Source: Kineosporia sp. NBRC 101731 (GTDB taxonomy: Bacteria > Actinomycetota > Actinomycetes > Actinomycetales > Kineosporiaceae). From it: a stretch of 64,000 nt of DNA. Location of the stretch: assembly GCF_030269305.1 (NCBI RefSeq), contig NZ_BSTC01000006.1, forward strand, positions 1 to 64,000, written 5' to 3'. Position 1 is the first letter of the stretch, and every line of letters begins with the position of its first letter. The translations under genes were made by a program, and so were the position numbers. The notes beneath the pieces are model-generated. The model did not search any database, was not told where the DNA came from, and saw only the letters and a program-made list of their open reading frames with translations. Positions 1,619 through 40,108 of the stretch are shown here, one piece after another.

Positions 1619-2286
1619 CAGTGCTCATCCTTCGAGGGCGGGGCGGCCATGCGCTGCTCCACCGAGGCCAGCTGGTCGTGGCGGAGCACGAAGTGCACCA
1701 GGTCGCCCTCCTGGAAAACAGTGTCGACGCCGGGCACGAGGCCCTCGCCGAGCCGGGTGAGGAAGGCCACGCGGGCCTGGGAGGCAGCCTCCAGCGCGAG
1801 CATCCGCCGGCCCACCCAGCCGGTGTGCACCTGCACCTCGGCGAGGATCACGGCCCCGGAGGGGTCGCGGAACTCGGAGATCGCGCCGGCCGGCAGCAGA
1901 CGGCGGGCCATCTGGTCGGCGGTCCAGCGCACCGTGGCGACGGTGGGTATGCCCAGGCGCTGGTAGACCTCGGCGCGGCCCGGGTCGTAGATCCGGGCGA
2001 CCACGTTGCTGATGCCGAACGTCTCGCGGGCCACCCGGGCCGCCAGGATGTTGGAGTTGTCACCGTTGCTGACGGCCGCGAACGCGTACGCGTCCTCGAT
2101 GCCGGCCTCGGTCAGGGTGTCCCGGTCGAAACCCGGCCCGACCACGCGGCGGCCCTCGAAGTGCGGCCCCAGGCGGCGGAAGGCGTTCGCGTTCTGATCC
2201 ACCACCGCGACGGTGTGGCCCCGGTCCTCGACCATCTGGGCCAGCGTCGAACCGGTCCGGCCGCAGCCCATGATCACGAAGTGCAC
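1618..2286 (-). CDS. TrkA/RCK-family potassium channel regulator (CeoB-like)
   Basis: This 222-residue RCK protein is first in the minus-strand operon. The Rossmann motif GCGRTG lies at residues 7-12, with Asp30 (VAVVD) at the ribose-binding position. The segment RWTADQMARRLLPAGAISEF is characteristic of the CeoB-type member of the actinobacterial CeoB/CeoC pair, and an RCK_C domain ends the protein. Two different RCK proteins encoded in tandem suggest a hetero-oligomeric gating ring. The gene is divergent from the KimA-like importer across 191 bp, which makes shared potassium-linked control plausible. I looked for a ydaO-type c-di-AMP riboswitch in that gap and did not see one. Confidence 0.9.
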   Translation of the reverse strand: MHFVIMGCGRTGSTLAQMVEDRGHTVAVVDQNANAFRRLGPHFEGRRVVGPGFDRDTLTEAGIEDAYAFAAVSNGDNSNILAARVARETFGISNVVARIYDPGRAEVYQRLGIPTVATVRWTADQMARRLLPAGAISEFRDPSGAVILAEVQVHTGWVGRRMLALEAASQARVAFLTRLGEGLVPGVDTVFQEGDLVHFVLRHDQLASVEQRMAAPPSKDEH

Positions 2287-2477
2287 GTTCGCCCGGCCCT
2301 CTCAGATGACCTTCGTCGTGGCCAGCCCACTCGGCGCTGCCCGCCAGCGAAGGTACACGGTCTCGCGCCCGGCTTCGCCCCAGGGCGGGTCAAGGCGGGT
2401 CAAGCCTGTGCGGCGGGACGCCAGAGGCGGCCCACCCGGTGACGCCCCGACCGCGAACAGGCCTACCATGACCCGTC

Positions 2478-4532
2478 GTGCCCAACTATCCCGGTGCCGT
2501 CAAACGGCTGCTCGTCGGGCGGCCGGTGCGCAGCGAACGTCTGGGCGAAACTCTTCTGCCCAAACGGATCGCGCTGCCGGTCTTCGCCTCCGACGCACTG
2601 TCGTCCGTCGCCTACGCACCGGACGAAATCCTGCTCACGCTCGCGGCCGCCGGGCTGACGTCCTACGCACTCTCGCCGTGGGTCGGGCTCTCCGTCGTCT
2701 TCGTCATGCTGATCGTGGTCGCCTCCTACCGGCAGAACGTGCACGCCTACCCCTCCGGCGGCGGCGACTACGAGGTGGCCACGGTCAACCTCGGCCCGAT
2801 GGCGGGCATCACCGTGGCCAGCGCCCTGCTGGTCGACTACGTGCTCACCGTGGCCGTGTCGATCTCCTCCGGCGCCCAGTACGCCGCCTCGGCCCTGCCC
2901 TTCCTGCGCGGGCACGAGGCCCTCGTCGCGGTGGCCGTGGTCGTGCTGCTGACCACCATCAACCTGCGCGGGGTGAGGGAGTCCGGCACCGCGTTCGCGA
3001 TCCCCACCTACGTGTTCATGTTCGCCATCCTCGGCATGAGCGCCTGGGGCTTCATCCGCTACTTCCTCGGTGACCTGCCCCTGGCCGAGAGCGCCGACCT
3101 GGTCCTGAAGCCCGAGACCCAGTTCGAGCAGGGCCTGGTCGGCCTGGGCGGCGGCTTCCTGCTGCTGCGCGCCTTCTCGTCCGGCTGCGCCGCGCTCACC
3201 GGGGTCGAGGCGATCAGCAACGGCGTGCCCGCGTTCAAGAAGCCCAAGAGCCGCAACGCCGCCAGCACGCTGGCCCTGCTCGGGGGCATCGCGGTGGCCA
3301 TGCTGATGTCGACGATCGTCCTGGCCCGGCTGATGCACGTGCGGTTCGCCGAGTTCCCGGCCGAGCAGCTGTTCCGCGACGGCCGGTCGGTCGGCGAGGA
3401 CTACGTGCAGGACCCGGTGATCGGGCAGATCGCGGGCGCGCTCTTCGGCGGTTTCCCGCCGGCCTTCTACCTGGTCACGTTCGCCACCGGCCTGATCCTC
3501 ATCCTGGCCGCGAACACCGCCTTCAACGGCTTCCCGGTGCTCGGCTCGATCCTGGCCAAGGACGACCTGCTGCCGCGCCAGCTGCACACCCGCGGCGACC
3601 GGCTGGCCTACAGCAACGGCATCGTCGCGCTCGCGGTCGGCGCCTGCCTGCTCATCCTGGCCTTCGACGCACAGGTCACCCGGCTGATCCAGCTCTACAT
3701 CGTGGGCGTCTTCATCTCCTTCACGGTCAGCCAGATCGGCATGGTGCGGCACTGGACCCGGCTGTTGCGGGAGGAGACCGAGACGGCCGCCCGGCGCAAG
3801 ATGCAGCAGTCGCGTGTGATCAACACGATCGGCCTGACCATCACCGGCAGCGTGCTGGTGGTGGTGTTGATCACCAAATTCACCCGCGGCGCCTACCTGG
3901 CCCTGATCTTCATGGCCCTGCTCTTCGTGCTGATGATCGCGATCCGCCGGCACTACCGTTCGGTGAGCGTGGAACTGGCCGAGGAGGACGACGCCCGCGG
4001 CCGCATGCTGCCCTCCCGGGTGCACGCCATCGTGCTGGTCTCCAAGCTGCACAAGCCGACCATGCGGGCCCTGGCCTACGCCCGGGCCTCGCGGCCGTCG
4101 GTGCTGGAGGCGGTGACCGTCAACGTCGACGGGGACGAGACCCGGCGGCTGCAGGACGATTGGGAGCGCCGCGACATCCCGGTGCCACTGCGGGCCCTGG
4201 ACTCGCCGTACCGTGAGATCACCCGGCCGGTGCTGAACTATGTGCGCAGCGTGCGCCGGGAGAGCCCGCGCGACCTGGTGGTCGTCTACGTGCCGGAGTA
4301 CGTGGTCGGGCGCTGGTGGGAGCAGTTGCTGCACAACCAGAGCGCGCTGCGGCTGAAGGGCGGGCTGCACTTCATGCCCGGCGTGATCGTGGCCAGCGTG
4401 CCGTGGCAGCTGAGGTCGTCGCGGCACCGGCTGGGAGAACTGCGCCGGGGCGCACCCGGCGACGCGCGCCGGGGCGCGGTGCCGCCGCACGGGGAACCGC
4501 TTGAACCGAACACGAAGGAGCAGGATGCCTGA
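2478..4532 (+). CDS. KimA-like APC-superfamily potassium importer
   Basis: This 684-residue membrane protein has about twelve hydrophobic segments between residues 40 and 490 and a soluble C-terminal domain. The N-terminus (VGRPVRSERLGE, then ASDALSSVAYAPDE at 37-50), the YPSGGGDYE loop and LLVDYVLTVAVS near 117-128 match Bacillus KimA (YdaO), a proton-coupled high-affinity potassium importer. The acidic residues Asp39 and Asp120 fall where KimA has functional aspartates. Automatic annotation would probably say amino acid permease. The neighbouring RCK genes favour potassium. Start GTG 2478 lies 8 nt after a TACCAT -10-like hexamer (2464-2469) with no clear Shine-Dalgarno, so translation may be leaderless. 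Confidence 0.8.
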   Translation: MPNYPGAVKRLLVGRPVRSERLGETLLPKRIALPVFASDALSSVAYAPDEILLTLAAAGLTSYALSPWVGLSVVFVMLIVVASYRQNVHAYPSGGGDYEVATVNLGPMAGITVASALLVDYVLTVAVSISSGAQYAASALPFLRGHEALVAVAVVVLLTTINLRGVRESGTAFAIPTYVFMFAILGMSAWGFIRYFLGDLPLAESADLVLKPETQFEQGLVGLGGGFLLLRAFSSGCAALTGVEAISNGVPAFKKPKSRNAASTLALLGGIAVAMLMSTIVLARLMHVRFAEFPAEQLFRDGRSVGEDYVQDPVIGQIAGALFGGFPPAFYLVTFATGLILILAANTAFNGFPVLGSILAKDDLLPRQLHTRGDRLAYSNGIVALAVGACLLILAFDAQVTRLIQLYIVGVFISFTVSQIGMVRHWTRLLREETETAARRKMQQSRVINTIGLTITGSVLVVVLITKFTRGAYLALIFMALLFVLMIAIRRHYRSVSVELAEEDDARGRMLPSRVHAIVLVSKLHKPTMRALAYARASRPSVLEAVTVNVDGDETRRLQDDWERRDIPVPLRALDSPYREITRPVLNYVRSVRRESPRDLVVVYVPEYVVGRWWEQLLHNQSALRLKGGLHFMPGVIVASVPWQLRSSRHRLGELRRGAPGDARRGAVPPHGEPLEPNTKEQDA

Positions 4533-6042
4533 GGGCCCGACGGGGGACGGCGAACGCCGCCCCGCCACACCGGACACCACTCGGGACCAGAACGGTCCCG
4601 GACTGGTCACCGACGAGCTGATCCAGCTCGAGATCGGTCCGGTCGCCCACGGCGGCCACTGCGTGGCGCGCTACGACGGACGGGTGGTGTTCGTGCGCCA
4701 CGCGCTACCTGGTGAGGTGGTGCTGGCCCGGCTGACCGAGTCCGCCGCCGACGCCAAGTTCTGGCGGGCCGACGCGGTCGAGGCGATCGAGCCCTCGCCC
4801 GACCGGGTGACGCCACCGTGCCCGGTGTCCGGGCCCGGTCTGTGCGGCGGCTGCGACTGGCAGCACGCCGACCTGGGCGCCCAGCGCCGGATGAAGGGTG
4901 ACGTGGTCGCCGAGCAGCTGCGCCGCATCGCCAAGCTCGACCCGGCGCCCGCCGTGGTGGTCGAGGGGCCGGAGGGTGACGGTCTGGGCTGGCGCACCCG
5001 GGTGCGCTTCACCTCCGACACCGAGGGCCGTCCCGGCCTGCGCAAGCACCGCTCGCACGACGTGATCGCGGTCAAGGAGTGCCTGATCGCGCACCCGGCC
5101 GCCGCTGAGCTCGGCGTCACCGGCGCCCGCTGGCCGAACACCCTGGCCGTCGAGGTGATCGCCCCCACCACCGGCACTCCGCTGGTCGTGGCCGAGGCGG
5201 TCGCCGGGCGGGCCGGGGACAAGCTGCGCCTGCCGAAGCTACCGGCCGGCACCAACCTGGCCACCCGCGACGCCGAGGGCCTGCACCAGGTCAAGGGTCG
5301 TACCTGGGTCACCGAGGAGGTGCTGATCGGGGGCGAGGTACGCCCGTTCCGGGTCACCGGCACCGGCTTCTGGCAGGTACACCCGGCCGCCGCGCAGACC
5401 CTGCTCGATGCCGTGCTGGAGGCTGCCCAGGCCCAGCCCGGCGAGCGGACGCTGGACCTGTACGGCGGTGTCGGCCTGTTCGCCGCCGGGCTGGCCGAGC
5501 AGGTCGGTGTCACGGGCAGCGTGATCCTCGTGGAGGGCGACACCCGCGCCGCGTCCGACGCCCGCCGCGGACTGCACGACCTCGGGCAGGTGCGCGTGGA
5601 GGCCGGTTCGGTGTCCCGGGTGCTGCCCCGCCTGGCCGCCGAGGGTGGCCCCTTGGCGCCCGAGGGGGAGCAGGGGGCGCGTGGGGGCGCCGACGTCGTG
5701 GTGCTCGACCCGCCCCGGTCGGGTGCGGGCAAGGAAGTGATCGCCCAGATCGTGGCCCTGGCCCCGAGAGTGGTCGTCTACGTGGCCTGCGACCCGGCCG
5801 CGCTCGCCCGGGACCTGGCCACGGCCGCCGCTGCCGGGTACGAACTGCAGGGCATCCGGGCGTTCGACCTGTTCCCGATGACCCATCACGTGGAGTGCGT
5901 GGCCGTGCTGGTGCCGAAGGGTGGGCGTCCGGCAGCCAAGGACCTGCCGGTGGCGGTCGAGCGACCGGCGCGCCCGGGCCGTCCCGACCGACCGAACCGC
6001 CGCCCCGAACGACCGGGCCGGCGACCCGAGCGCCGGAGCTGA
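4525..6042 (+). CDS. TRAM-domain class I SAM-dependent RNA (uracil-5-) methyltransferase
   Basis: This is a 505-residue RlmD/RlmC/TrmA-type enzyme that methylates C5 of uridine in rRNA or tRNA. A TRAM domain (about 25-85) is followed by an iron-sulfur-type cysteine set (a Cys near 99, then CGGC near 107-110, and a fourth Cys near 187 in VKECLIAH). The SAM fold has LDLYGGVGLFA near 311, DPPRSGAGKEV, the catalytic Cys in VYVACDPA near 423, and the general-base Glu in THHVECVAVL. ATG 4525 was chosen because AAGGAG lies 4 nt upstream; it overlaps the KimA-like stop by 8 bp. The tail is a Pro/Arg-rich run. Which RNA position is modified cannot be told from sequence alone. Confidence 0.9.
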   Translation: MPEGPTGDGERRPATPDTTRDQNGPGLVTDELIQLEIGPVAHGGHCVARYDGRVVFVRHALPGEVVLARLTESAADAKFWRADAVEAIEPSPDRVTPPCPVSGPGLCGGCDWQHADLGAQRRMKGDVVAEQLRRIAKLDPAPAVVVEGPEGDGLGWRTRVRFTSDTEGRPGLRKHRSHDVIAVKECLIAHPAAAELGVTGARWPNTLAVEVIAPTTGTPLVVAEAVAGRAGDKLRLPKLPAGTNLATRDAEGLHQVKGRTWVTEEVLIGGEVRPFRVTGTGFWQVHPAAAQTLLDAVLEAAQAQPGERTLDLYGGVGLFAAGLAEQVGVTGSVILVEGDTRAASDARRGLHDLGQVRVEAGSVSRVLPRLAAEGGPLAPEGEQGARGGADVVVLDPPRSGAGKEVIAQIVALAPRVVVYVACDPAALARDLATAAAAGYELQGIRAFDLFPMTHHVECVAVLVPKGGRPAAKDLPVAVERPARPGRPDRPNRRPERPGRRPERRS

Positions 6043-31429: not shown

Positions 31430-31915
31430 TCAGCCGAGGAAGCTGCTGCCCGCGTACACGTGGAGCACGGGCACGCCGAGAGCCTCGCGGGCGCGGGAGG
31501 CCCAGTCGGTGTGGAACGTGTCTTCCACCGCGTGCGGGCGGGTCACGATCATCACCTCACGCACGGTGTCACCGGCCCCGACCTTCTTCTCCAGCACGGC
31601 CACCGGGTCTCCCTCGACGACCTCGCCCGTGGCGGGGGTGCCGGCGGCGGCGAACGCGGTCAGCGACCGGGCCAGGGCCGCGGCGGCCTCGGTGCGGGTG
31701 GGCTCGTCGTCACGGCGCACGGCCTCCAGGGCCTCGCGCAGCTGGAACAGACTCAGGTGGTCGAGCACGTCGGCGAGCAGATTGCGCTCGACGTCGGCGG
31801 GGACCAGCAGGTGGTAGGTGAGCTGCTCGTCCGCGTGCACCGAGGTCAGGCGGAGCGCGTCCTCCTCGCTCAGTGCCTCTTCGGTCAGAACCAGGATCGA
31901 CGATGTCTCGGTCAC
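31430..31915 (-). CDS. Conserved actinobacterial protein of unknown function
   Basis: This 161-residue acidic soluble protein begins SSILVLTEEALSEEDALRL and ends HAVEDTFHTDWASRARE, then LGVPVLHVYAG. The alternating strands and helices suggest a Rossmann/USP-like fold. I recall relatives in Streptomyces, sometimes labelled indole-3-glycerol phosphate synthase, but I see none of that enzyme's motifs. No function is assigned. Confidence 0.75.
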   Translation of the reverse strand: MTETSSILVLTEEALSEEDALRLTSVHADEQLTYHLLVPADVERNLLADVLDHLSLFQLREALEAVRRDDEPTRTEAAAALARSLTAFAAAGTPATGEVVEGDPVAVLEKKVGAGDTVREVMIVTRPHAVEDTFHTDWASRAREALGVPVLHVYAGSSFLG

Positions 31916-34219: not shown

Positions 34220-37615
<3,396 letters not shown>

Positions 37616-37627
37616 AACCGGTTGCTG

Positions 37628-37650
37628 CCGTGCCGGTCGTTCTGGCACGG
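37628..37650 (+). terminator. Hairpin after lacZ
   Basis: CCGTGCC (37628-37634) pairs with GGCACGG (37644-37650) around a 9-nt loop, 12 bp after the lacZ stop and 8 bp before RNA copy 1. There is no T-run, so efficiency is uncertain. Confidence 0.5.
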
Positions 37651-37657
37651 TAGGCCC

Positions 37658-37732
37658 GAGGCCTGGTCGGGGCATCCTTCGTGAGCCTTCGGGCTCAAAC
37701 CTTCGGAGTTTGCCTGCCCCGGCGATCTCCTC
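37658..37732 (+). ncRNA. Structured RNA motif, copy 1 (three-way junction)
   Basis: The outer stem GAGG/CCTC (37658-37661 with 37729-37732) is followed by an internal loop CCTGGT / GCGATCT. A 7-bp stem CGGGGCA/TGCCCCG (37668-37674 with 37715-37721) then opens into a junction holding TCCTTCG. Hairpin P2 is TGAGCC-TTCG-GGCTCA. Hairpin P3 is AAACC-TTCG-G(A)GTTT, a C(UUCG)G tetraloop stem with one bulge. A 12-bp terminator follows, so this copy may be a free-standing small RNA or a terminating leader. Copy 2 lies 74 bp downstream. I do not recognise the motif. Confidence 0.7.
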
Positions 37733-37739
37733 ACGACCT

Positions 37740-37770
37740 ACGGACCGGTCCCTCGGACCGGTCCGTATTT
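37740..37770 (+). terminator. Intrinsic terminator between the two RNA copies
   Basis: A perfect 12-bp stem (37740-37751 with 37755-37766) with a 3-nt loop is followed by ATTTCGTTT. It would end a transcript carrying RNA copy 1 before copy 2 is made. Confidence 0.8.
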
Positions 37771-37806
37771 CGTTTGCCGCCGGGGATCAGGCACTGGCAC
37801 CGTGAT

Positions 37807-37885
37807 GACGAGGCCTGGCCGGGACATCCTTCGTGGGCCGTGAGGCCCGGTCTGCAAAACCCCCTGTCCCGGCGATCTCCTCGTC
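37807..37885 (+). ncRNA. Structured RNA motif, copy 2 (three-way junction, upstream of the TerD-like gene)
   Basis: The architecture matches copy 1. The outer stem is extended to GACGAGG/CCTCGTC (37807-37813 with 37879-37885). The internal loop is CCTGGC / GCGATCT. The inner stem CGGGACA/TGTCCCG (37820-37826 with 37865-37871) carries an A-T pair where copy 1 has G-C. P2 is GGGCC-GTGA-GGCCC, with a GNRA loop and a compensatory pair change. P3 is GGT-N7-ACC. TCCTTCGT and GGCGATCTCCTC are identical in both copies. The CTCC within the 3' strand could instead pair with the GGAG of the downstream ribosome binding site (about 37900), so it may act as a cis-regulatory switch. Confidence 0.7.
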
Positions 37886-37909
37886 CCGAACCAGCACCGG
37901 AGGCCGGAC

Positions 37910-40108
37910 ATGACCACGCACGAGCACATCGCTTTCCGGCGGTGCCGCGTGCTGCTCGCCCCGGGCGGCCCGCAGCCGTCGGCCGAGCTCGCCGTGGCCA
38001 CCCTCGACGAGCTGCGCAACGCCGGACTGGTGGTCTCCGACCCGGAAGACCTCACCGCCGGCTGCGCCGACCGGGTGAAGCAGTGGGCGGCCTGGTCGCG
38101 GGCGGAACGCGGCCAGAAAGGGGATTATTCGCCGCTCTTCGCCGGCTTCCCGGAGCAGCTGCCCACCTTCGACCGGAGCCGGCTGCGGTTCGGCCTGGGA
38201 TGGGTGCGCCTGGCCGTCCGGGCCCTGCGCGGCGGCGGGGCGGTGAACGACGCGGACGTGCGCGCGGCGACGGACTTCTCCAGGATCGGCTGGTGGCCCG
38301 CGTCGTCCGTGCCGCAGGATCCCGACCGGGCGCTGCTGGACCGGGAGTTCCGGCGCACGCTGCCGGGTGACGAGCTCCAGCAGCTCACGGTCGTGCGGCT
38401 GGTGTCCGACGACGAAATGCGGCGTCTGCTGCAGGATTTCGCGCTGGGCTGCCTGGCTTCACCGGGATCGCTGCGGGACGACGTGCGGGCTGATCTCGAC
38501 GCGGTGCTCGACGGCCTTCTGCCGGCGCTCCCGGCCCTGGAAGAGATTCCGTTCCTGGAGACCCGGACCCTGGTGATGCGCCGGGTGTTCGCCGCCGACC
38601 CGCGGCGCCTGCCCGGTCTCGGCGCCACGCCCGACGACCTGCTGCGCCTGTTCGCCGACCTGACCGGCAGCGACGTCTCGCTGGGCACCACCATGACCTA
38701 CCCCCGGTTCACCCGGGCCCAGCGGCGGGCCGTGGTCGCGGCGCTGGAGGCCTCGCCGCGGCTGGGCGATGTGTTCCGGCGCCGCGGGCTCTGGCTCGCG
38801 GTGGCCCGGGGGCTGCACCTGAAAGAGTTCGACGCGCCCCGCGTACAGGAGGTGTTCGGGCGGTTGCGCTCGACCCGGCGGGACGCGACCAGTCTGCCCT
38901 CACGGGTCGAGGCCCGGCTGGCCGCATCCGAGATCACCGCTGCCGTGGACCTTCTCGCGGGGCAGGCACCGGGTCTGCTGGTCCGTCAGCTGCGGCGGCT
39001 CGTGCACCTGGCGGTCGAGCACGACCAGGTGGCGCCGGTGCTCGGGACGGTGGCGACGGCGCTGGGGCCGGTCCCGCCCCGGGTGCTCTGGGCGGCCCAC
39101 GGCCAGTTCCGCGACAACGGCGCCACCTACCCCCGGCTGGCGATCAACAAGTCCGGCGGTGCGCTGCGGGTTCCCGGCCCGGAAGGGCACCTGGCCGTCG
39201 GGACCGACGTCCAGAAGCAGGTTCTGGCCCTGCTGGAAGGTGCGCTGACCGCGCACCAGGAGGCCCGCGAGACCACGTCGGAGCTCAAGCTGGCCGGCGC
39301 CAGGGTGTGGATCGACCCGGCGCTGGAGAATGTGCTCCTGCCCGATCAGCTGCGGTCCACGGCGCCCGGTCTGGTGCAGGTGGAGCGGGGTTCCCGGCTG
39401 GCCCTGGGGCAGGCTCCGGTGCTGCGGCTGTTCCTGCACTGGCGCGAGCCGGCGGGGGCCCGGTCCGACCTCGACCTCTCGCTGCTGGCGCTGGACGAGA
39501 ACTTCCGGCTGGTCGAGCAGGTGTCCTGGACGAACCTGGGCAACGGCGCGATGACGCACTCCGGTGATCTGACCAGTGCTCCGGTGGGGGCGCAGGAGTT
39601 CATCGACGTGCGGCTCGACGCGGCCCGGGCACGCAGCGGCTGGCGGTACCTGGTGCCGGCCGTCTACCGCTACTCCGGTCCGGTGTTCGGTGAACTGCCG
39701 GAGGCGGTGCTGGGCTGGATGCTGCGGGAGCAGTGCTCGGCCGACCACGCCACGTTCGACCCGTCCACGGTGGTCAACGCGTTCGCGCTGGCCGGCCGGC
39801 AGCCGCAGGCCCTGCCCATGCTGGTCGACCTGGCGAACGACGAGGTCGTCCAGCTGGATCTGTACACCGCGCGGGGGTTCCGGAACAGCGTGGAGAACAC
39901 GGCGATCCCGACCGGGGAGCTGGTGGCCGGGGTGGTCGCGCGGGCGGCGGTGAAGGTGTCCACGGCCTCGGCGGTGCGGCACGCGGTGGCGGCTCGGGGC
40001 GGTGTCGTCGTCGGTGAAAGAGAGCAGGCCACGGTGACCTTCGGCCTGGACGACGACTGTACGTTCGACGCGCGGTCGCCGCAGGAACTGCTCACCGAAC
40101 TGGTGTGA
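37910..40108 (+). CDS. Large TerD-like domain protein related to the MXAN_6230/SCO0854 family, apparently without its RING
   Basis: This is a 732-residue soluble protein. The N-terminus (FRRCRVLLAPGG... then LRNAGLVVSD) and the middle (ATPDDLLRLFADLTGSD, RFTRAQRRAVVAALEASPRL) resemble the MXAN_6230/SCO0854 family of stress-associated proteins. A TerD-like region follows from about 500 to 690 (LFLHWREPAGARSDLDLSLL, then AMTHSGDLTSAPVGAQEFID). The cysteine-rich RING that I recall in that family is not visible where expected (near 100-150). GGAGG lies 6 nt before ATG 37910. It stands alone behind the twin RNA motif. Biochemical function is unknown; family assignment is from remembered motifs. 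Confidence 0.65.
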   Translation: MTTHEHIAFRRCRVLLAPGGPQPSAELAVATLDELRNAGLVVSDPEDLTAGCADRVKQWAAWSRAERGQKGDYSPLFAGFPEQLPTFDRSRLRFGLGWVRLAVRALRGGGAVNDADVRAATDFSRIGWWPASSVPQDPDRALLDREFRRTLPGDELQQLTVVRLVSDDEMRRLLQDFALGCLASPGSLRDDVRADLDAVLDGLLPALPALEEIPFLETRTLVMRRVFAADPRRLPGLGATPDDLLRLFADLTGSDVSLGTTMTYPRFTRAQRRAVVAALEASPRLGDVFRRRGLWLAVARGLHLKEFDAPRVQEVFGRLRSTRRDATSLPSRVEARLAASEITAAVDLLAGQAPGLLVRQLRRLVHLAVEHDQVAPVLGTVATALGPVPPRVLWAAHGQFRDNGATYPRLAINKSGGALRVPGPEGHLAVGTDVQKQVLALLEGALTAHQEARETTSELKLAGARVWIDPALENVLLPDQLRSTAPGLVQVERGSRLALGQAPVLRLFLHWREPAGARSDLDLSLLALDENFRLVEQVSWTNLGNGAMTHSGDLTSAPVGAQEFIDVRLDAARARSGWRYLVPAVYRYSGPVFGELPEAVLGWMLREQCSADHATFDPSTVVNAFALAGRQPQALPMLVDLANDEVVQLDLYTARGFRNSVENTAIPTGELVAGVVARAAVKVSTASAVRHAVAARGGVVVGEREQATVTFGLDDDCTFDARSPQELLTELV

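Follow-up and report, generated by a model that had tools for sequence, protein, structure and literature searches.

Just upstream of a gene whose product resembles TerD, the window analysed here, a 64,000-nucleotide stretch of a contig from Kineosporia sp. NBRC 101731, carries two similar sequences that a first-pass annotation took for a twin structured RNA with covarying stems. This raises the question of what these sequences are, and of how they relate to the gene beside them. We suggest that they are probably genes for a small structured non-coding RNA that forms a ribonucleoprotein (RNP) particle with the protein of the adjacent gene. The features of the locus are collected in Table 1.

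Table 1. Positions of the two RNA copies, the presumed partner gene and the associated elements in the window
Feature	Position	Strand	Description
Promoter-like element, copy 1	37622-37651	+	TTGCTG - 18 nt - (TGG)CACGGT, ends 6 nt 5' of GAGG; by eye
RNA copy 1	37656-37736	+	outer stem 37658-37661/37729-37732, inner stem, internal loop, ATCCTTCG strand, two apical hairpins
Terminator-like hairpin	37739-37767	+	directly 3' of copy 1, 13 pairs, then TTTCGTTTGC
Promoter-like element, copy 2	37774-37803	+	TTGCCG - 18 nt - (TGG)CACCGT; by eye
RNA copy 2	37806-37890	+	motif 37807-37885, 7-bp outer stem GACGAGG/CCTCGTC
Presumed partner gene, 732 aa	37910-40108	+	N-terminal alpha-helical domain, C-terminal TerD-like beta-sandwich

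Both copies are present, and their alignment agrees with the twin structure and covarying stems. They have a GAGG/CCTC outer stem, an internal loop and an inner stem in common, and the strand ATCCTTCG is identical in the two. One G-C to A-T change separates their inner stems, while the hairpin P2 differs by one A-T to G-C change and in its loop; the outer stem is, as had been noted, longer in copy 2 than the GAGG/CCTC of copy 1. Against dinucleotide shuffles, the + strand of copy 1 folds with z = -2.11 (9/200 shuffles equally good) and that of copy 2 with z = -3.40 (0/200 as good). The minus strand of copy 1 folds poorly (z = -0.43, 62/200 shuffles), and that of copy 2 has a good fold too (z = -2.95, 1/200). 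Since copy 2 folds well on both strands, the folds alone leave strand and function unsettled, and it is conservation that settles them.

A DNA search of the window genome (8.26 Mb, 88 contigs) found convincing similarity confined to these two copies, the many short matches elsewhere all having E > 0.08, and an exact-pattern scan of the same genome found copies at this locus only. Two copies in a genome, both beside one gene, argue against a REP-type repeat; the scatter of such a repeat, which the first-pass annotation had named as one outcome that would refute its reading, was not seen, and genome-wide the matches stay beside the gene. It had also matched the motif to no known small RNA or riboswitch, and Rfam indeed has no family that covers it, either in the window, where nothing exceeds the curated threshold, or in 16 loci with copies, where again nothing does so. 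For one form of the RNA the tRNA family alone is found (see below). Sub-threshold Rfam matches obtained in the window at permissive E-values, and one on L042 (P15, 12.4 bits), were taken as chance.

Two genomes of the same genus carry the motif at the corresponding position, flanked by a GH2 beta-galactosidase gene on one side and a homologue of the 37910-40108 gene on the other, with two copies in G009 and one in G005. In three others (G006, G007 and G008) this gene had no counterpart at E <= 1e-10, and a search with the covariance model R1 (below) gave no convincing motif, weak matches being judged by eye. In all five genus copies, TTGNNN, a spacer of 17-18 nt and CACSKT with TGG before it are seen by eye 6-8 nt 5' of GAGG. 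A scan for sigma-70 consensus promoters picked up neither of the promoter-like elements in the window, so we infer these elements from their conservation. A terminator scan of 37560-37960 found one terminator, the hairpin 3' of copy 1, against a mean of 0.2 in shuffles, and a GC-rich hairpin stands, by eye, 3' of 4/5 genus copies, including both in G009 and the one in G005. From these sequence elements, the genus copies would appear to be short separate transcripts. No such hairpin was found between copy 2 and the gene; copy 2 may therefore be read through into the mRNA, and it is perhaps a leader. An inverted repeat, CCGTGCC..GGCACGG (37628-37650, by eye), overlaps the promoter-like element of copy 1 and could be the terminator of the upstream beta-galactosidase gene.

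A covariance model started from the two copies led, as the first-pass annotation had proposed, to homologues with compensatory changes beside homologous genes. The model R1, built from the two window copies and searched in the window's family at E <= 1, gave 18 matches: the window's own two, three judged real (G009 twice, G005 once) and 13 others (L013, L015-L021, L023-L027) that were dropped by eye as coding-like sequence. R2, built from the five genus copies (two from the window, two from G009, one from G005), was searched in 36 sources, these being the window and 35 of the 36 loci with protein homologues; the fragment L034 was left out. Beyond its training copies it gave 28 matches, at E-values of 1e-6 to 0.04, in 22 loci of other families, where the RNA lies just 3' of the gene, with two copies side by side in six of the 22. 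The alignment A3 holds 33 copies near homologous genes, and R3 was built from it. E-values from the R models are rough, and the window copies, which match R2 at 4.5e-18 (copy 1, 37654-37736) and 2.8e-19 (copy 2) and R3 at 4.3e-9 and 1.4e-10, are training rows of both. Elsewhere in the window, R3 has a weak match at 31838-31871 (E = 0.11).

Selection on RNA structure had been claimed from the two copies, and covariation is far above that of shuffles in both larger alignments. In A3, 96.7% of cells are paired against 82.9% (sd 1.0) in shuffles (0/500), and in an alignment of 99 copies from 71 loci the figure is 95.1% against 73.1% (sd 0.7; 0/500), where it should be noted that fitting to the structure biases both alignments towards pairing, and that slid controls were 48-61% and 47-64% paired, respectively. 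Two-sided changes are found in 72 cells of A3 against 21.2 in shuffles, and in 315 cells of the larger alignment against 91.0, where 13/15 pairs show them. RNAalifold on A3 returns the same two stems plus two outer pairs, with two-sided changes in 10/15 pairs. These comparisons support the view that the RNA structure is under selection. Conservation across relatives covers both stems, the internal loop and the AUCCUUC/UUCCUUC strand; the hairpins P2 and P3, which had been described as part of the motif, are present in the window copies but are not kept beyond the genus, nor in all of its copies.

We searched R3 over 394 whole actinomycete genomes, the same genome sampling as for the protein search, and obtained 45 matches in 33 genomes, 41 of them at E <= 1e-6 in 29 genomes. 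Comparison of the two tables places these strong matches within about 350 nt of a protein match in 27/29 genomes, a test that is partly circular because 23 of the 27 supplied R3 training copies, the independent genomes being six (G150, G157, G193, G427, G137 and G411). The remaining two of the 29 have a split gene directly 5' of the RNA (G137) and an apparent C-terminal remnant beside it (G411), the latter judged by eye; the profile found no gene frame there. This genome-wide search, run with stricter filters, gave no strong R3 match away from the gene in these genomes. Among 41 protein-positive genomes, 28 have an R3 match and 13 do not; in G397 the only match is at 7e-4, about 550 nt from the gene. 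All 13 genomes without a match have open frames of 878-1165 aa, and the two that were looked at (L059 and L063) hold a weaker match 5' of the gene (E = 1.1e-5 and 0.0032), the L063 protein being a full member of NF041916. R3 also matches at E = 0.036 in G260 and 0.00125 in G407, and a match at L093 (E = 2.7e-5), which has no partner-gene frame, was taken as a chance match in coding sequence. At L032/L034 (G005), L070 (G137) and L091 (G411) the gene is in two frames, split or an apparent remnant, and the RNA is kept.

The linkage extends over several phyla, which, like the tRNA mimicry described below, was out of reach of the first-pass annotation. A protein-alignment search of genome contigs found 463 relatives, and the analysis was continued with the best 80. 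Among these best 80 of 463, 71 loci contain R3 matches at E <= 0.1, 99 in total and all on the gene's strand, with 96/99 at E <= 0.01; eight of the 99, in six loci, are identical to a training copy, and 65/71 loci have no such match. The nearest RNA lies 3-101 nt 3' of the gene, on the gene's strand, at 68 of the best 80 loci, and 21 loci carry tandem RNAs, two or more within 250 nt. Exceptions in position are L105 (+1435, E = 0.07), L107 (+551, +718) and L129 (5' only). Across the 741 kb of these 80 loci, the gene strand contains the word CTTCCTTCT 102 times and the opposite strand does not contain it at all; 78 occurrences are inside model matches, and 18 of the other 24 are in a tRNA-embedded form described below. 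This form is found 5' of the gene at five of the nine loci that lack an R3 match (L122, L141, L145, L164 and L173), two more (L101 and L102) hold permuted forms by eye, the contig of L100 stops about 65 nt 3' of the gene, and in L104 no RNA form was found. Phyla with matches at E < 0.01 include Actinomycetota, Eremiobacterota (L098, L106, L117), Myxococcota (L103, L108, L110) and Acidobacteriota (L109), along with L099 Stieleria, which we take to be Planctomycetota, and L107 Acanthopleuribacter, presumably also Acidobacteriota. At L129, L131, L157 and L170, a further RNA copy (two in L129) stands 1.1-1.5 kb upstream of the gene, and ARAGORN places four or five tRNA genes immediately 5' of it. 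Neighbouring genes were dropped as a lead: no protein family stands beside the gene in more than 9 of the best 80 loci, and 7/10 scanned flanking proteins matched Pfam with no common theme, one being GatA (L097).

Seven plasmid and phage records were also searched with R3. An uncultured 485-kb phage encodes a homologue and has three matches (7e-12 to 1.1e-8), a faecal phage fragment has two near 0.01, and a Niallia record has one at 1.1e-6. A Variovorax plasmid matches at 1.7e-4, a Kitasatospora plasmid (L183) at 2.9e-5 with the RNA 5' of the gene, and a Deinococcus plasmid has three tandem matches (L187:1168-1471, 3.4e-6 to 0.0015) 5' of a TerD-family gene. The Vibrio record (L185) has no R3 match and two look-alikes by eye; an exact-pattern scan of viral contigs gave 0. 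On the Deinococcus plasmid, genes for a GatB/YqeY-domain protein and a VWA-like protein are close to the RNAs.

The 732-aa protein has no match in Pfam at E <= 10. Against NCBIfam NF041916 it scores 243.3 bits, under the family cut-off of 600, and it is a distant relative of the MXAN_6230/SCO0854 RING family. AlphaFold2 models reached a pLDDT of 73 for the full length and 86 for residues 1-460 with 54 sequences. With Foldseek, the C-terminal part of the model matches TerD (3ibz, E = 2.1e-6, TM 0.71 by target length; 2qng, E = 6.5e-5). As predicted, then, the protein carries a C-terminal TerD fold, which bears out the 'TerD-like gene' of the first-pass annotation; a leader or riboswitch, which its word 'upstream' might suggest, is unsupported, as the RNA lies 3' at most loci. 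For the helical part no Foldseek match reached E <= 0.001, the best being at 0.09 among the 50 of 532 matches listed. A search of PDB sequences with the partner-family profile gave one chance match (E = 0.57), and it has little power, since the profile misses the TerD entries of the PDB too. Among the anti-phage defence models of PADLOC the protein has no match, with 0 families assigned to three homologues. At all three RING-type loci looked at (L059, L063 and the Kitasatospora plasmid L183) the RNA is 5' of the gene.

Among relatives the RNA takes three forms: a stem-loop only, a permuted tRNA inside the stem, and the stem inside a tRNA. The first, stem and loop without any tRNA part, is the commonest and is that of the window, where the copies have no T arm, no D arm and no tRNA module. 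In the second form a circularly permuted tRNA sits in the stem loop, in the order T arm, acceptor capped by a short loop, UA and D arm, and the anticodon stem joins it to the motif. In the minimum free energy (MFE) folds of L107, L109 and L103, each of the T, acceptor and D arms is formed; L102 and L105 form the T arm and capped acceptor, and their D-arm sequence is there but unformed in the MFE folds. The third L107 RNA folds with z = -4.68 (0/200 shuffles), and the tandem second copies of L036, L039, L042 and L047 have a T arm, for example CCUGG-UUCGAUU-CCAGG, and a second hairpin. Loose patterns applied to the 99 model matches found T and D arms in 13, T only in 9, D only in 1 and neither in 76. 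At L105:6170-7700, from Desulfobacterales, the region 3' of the gene holds about five permuted-tRNA sequences with two tRNA-Pro genes set among them.

The third form is a tRNA body, with acceptor, D and T arms, into whose anticodon loop the motif is inserted, the outer stem of the motif being closed by a cap. This form was found by pattern at 20 of the best 80 of 463 loci and at L029, L033 and L043. Its UUCCUUC strand is 37-193 nt 5' of the predicted gene start at 17 of the 20 loci, the rest being L148 (489 nt), L139 (3.1 kb) and L146, which has an incomplete gene frame; a copy 3' of the gene is also present at 15 of the 20. The Rfam tRNA model (RF00005) matches over positions 1-71 at 12/18 submitted loci of this form, with 49.4-54.4 bits at a threshold of 29. 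The embedded RNA of L029 and L033, from genomes of the window's family, is nearly the same as that of Kineosporia sp. A_224 (L122), and L043 1148-1223 (E = 0.24) is part of such a form. ARAGORN calls no tRNA in L029 or L033, and one in L043, elsewhere. Taken alone, neither the fold of L029 (z = -1.19, 21/200 shuffles) nor that of the first Variovorax RNA (z = -0.53) beats its shuffles. ARAGORN tRNA genes lie within 600 nt of the gene at 13 of the best 80 of 463 loci, as a raw count, and one phage record has, by eye, what look like tRNA genes at a distance of about 2 kb. The two natural permutations, tRNA inside stem and stem inside tRNA, are direct evidence of two separate modules, with the anticodon stem as their junction.

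Based on these observations, we propose that the RNA would be transcribed and bound by the protein of the adjacent gene. Its protein-binding end would be the conserved stem and internal loop (GAGGCC ... CUCUCCUC) with the UUCCUUC-like strand, and the helical domain is most likely what binds this stem. The other end would be an effector module, which in many relatives is a tRNA mimic attached through the anticodon stem and which in the window appears reduced to short hairpins; the window copies may thus be derived forms that keep the protein-binding end. The tRNA module would recruit or deflect tRNA-handling factors, with the TerD domain acting as a putative sensor. The function of the particle may resemble that of the Ro/Y-RNA particle, namely the surveillance, decay or repair of tRNAs, or the particle may instead be a decoy for tRNA-cutting enzymes. 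RtcR activates operons for RNA repair, which include rsr and Y RNAs in certain bacteria (PMC7790460). On the Variovorax megaplasmid (L182:1-929, 2252-5016), rtcR is fourth in a cluster divergent from the RING/TerD gene, with three short genes between the two, and that gene is followed by one model match and one look-alike RNA; this link concerns one group of related plasmids, of which one was looked at. A role in RNA repair is suggested by rtcR on this plasmid, by the tRNA genes near the gene and by the phage tRNA genes, and we regard these as suggestive only.

Could the motif instead act in cis within the leader of the TerD-like gene, as a riboswitch or an attenuator that uses the terminator of copy 1 as its expression platform? 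The RNAs of the window, G009 and G005 do lie 5' of the gene and have terminator-like hairpins, and they are 5' also in two RING-type homologues and in the Kitasatospora and Deinococcus plasmids, but an RNA that starts 3-101 nt after the gene end at 68 of the best 80 of 463 loci is unlikely to be that gene's riboswitch, and neither tandem copies nor tRNA bodies are expected of one. We therefore consider this reading quite improbable, and the bound protein may autoregulate through leader copies. GAAGGA is a common Shine-Dalgarno sequence, complementary to the conserved strand, so that the RNA might also be imagined as a trans-acting antisense regulator whose single strand UUCCUUCU pairs with ribosome-binding sites of this type. 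That strand is nearly invariant and lies outside the conserved stems; such a role, which leaves the linkage to one protein gene and the fused tRNA bodies unexplained, seems to us very improbable, and the comparable ACUUC strand at about the same place in YrlA-like RNAs suggests a structural or protein-binding role. Hardly credible, finally, is that the locus is a tRNA-derived integration site or holds permuted tRNA genes that mature to functional tRNAs. Such a reading would account for the tRNA bodies and for the ARAGORN tRNA genes within 600 nt, but the embedded form is without an anticodon loop and goes uncalled in L029 and L033, the acceptor is capped in the permuted form, and the commonest form is the stem motif without any tRNA part.

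A closer rival is that the RNA is a genuine, divergent Y RNA whose Ro60 has drifted beyond recognition, a TROVE ring being followed by TerD in place of the vWA domain. The YrlA layout of basal stem followed by permuted T arm, capped acceptor and D arm (PMC8394870) is that of the permuted form, the partner is predicted to have a helical and then a beta domain, and a gene followed by two RNAs recalls the rsr-yrlBA-rtcBA operon (PMC7790460). The protein comparisons speak against it: hhalign of the partner against TROVE gave a probability of 0.2% with a shallow TROVE profile of 3 sequences, Ro60 is absent from the 50 of 532 Foldseek matches listed for the helical part, and TROVE homology is thus unsupported by hhalign, Foldseek and profile search alike. 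R3 is silent at TROVE genes, with 0 matches at E <= 10 in three and four loci (L094-L096 and L177-L180). The window genome, moreover, encodes a separate TROVE/Ro protein of 526 aa (G000:C8:302965-303189; L095:715-2295), beside which R3 found no RNA. We regard a divergent Y RNA as doubtful on these grounds.

YrlA-like sequences (the label is ours), that is, permuted tRNA-like sequences near TROVE genes, were seen in two genomes and four actinophages (L096:572, L094 minus strand 331, L177:1972, L178:2098 and 2254, L179:4601, L180:2281), and 87 phage records carry Ro-like genes. In the phage records these sequences are unannotated, some lie in phage tRNA arrays, and the fold of the L177 sequence (z = 0.87) is no better than shuffles. 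As Rfam gives only tRNA at phage Ro genes with YrlA-like RNAs, its silence says little on Y RNAs.

To our knowledge, bacterial RNAs that combine a dedicated protein with tRNA mimicry are chiefly the Y RNAs with Ro60, and tmRNA. If the particle we propose is real, a second protein, widely distributed among bacteria and also phage-borne, would have tRNA-mimic RNAs of its own, and the large family of TerD and 'RING SCO0854' proteins would acquire a role. The particle would also make the tie between tRNA mimic and stress protein testable, be it nuclease tethering, tRNA repair or a decoy against tRNA-cutting enzymes. A literature search, with most subscription journals outside it, found no paper on this pairing of RNA and TerD protein.

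Compared with known systems, the predicted C-terminal TerD fold is shared with the TerD-domain stress proteins of Ter systems, whereas the window protein joins it to a large helical domain and has an RNA alongside; the flanking proteins scanned in the window (GH2 beta-galactosidase, SufE, sugar-type ABC permease) include no Ter proteins. The likeness to NF041916 (MXAN_6230/SCO0854) is homology, strongest over the middle and C-terminal parts, with 243-353 bits for four RNA-bearing homologues, although the window protein stays under the 600-bit cut-off. The embedded forms resemble tRNA (RF00005), but in them the motif replaces the anticodon loop and ARAGORN makes no call. The nearest parallel is YrlA with Rsr. 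According to the review PMC8394870, YrlA is 90-150 nt long; its ends pair in a stem that holds Rsr, and its tRNA-like end, which resembles D, T and acceptor arms, holds PNPase. The present RNAs are likewise small (model matches of 60-157 nt); the hairpin and permuted forms have a basal stem from both ends, the ends of the embedded form making the acceptor instead, and a subset of the TerD-linked RNAs has T, capped acceptor and D arms. Here too the RNA gene stands beside the presumed partner gene, in tandem copies and in phages as well. They differ in that the partner has a helical domain and TerD in place of a detected TROVE domain, the basal sequence is GAGGCC / UUCCUUC rather than about GAUGCG / ACUUC, one form lies inside an open tRNA body and many copies are without a tRNA module. 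Because the RNA resembles a Y RNA in layout and differs from one in partner and basal sequence, we do not class it as a Y RNA. On balance, we lean towards an undescribed two-component RNP system of at least seven bacterial phyla and huge phages, in which a helical-TerD protein would be served by one to about five dedicated RNAs with a new protein-binding stem and three tRNA-mimic combinations, and which would represent a second, independent invention of the Ro/Y-RNA principle.
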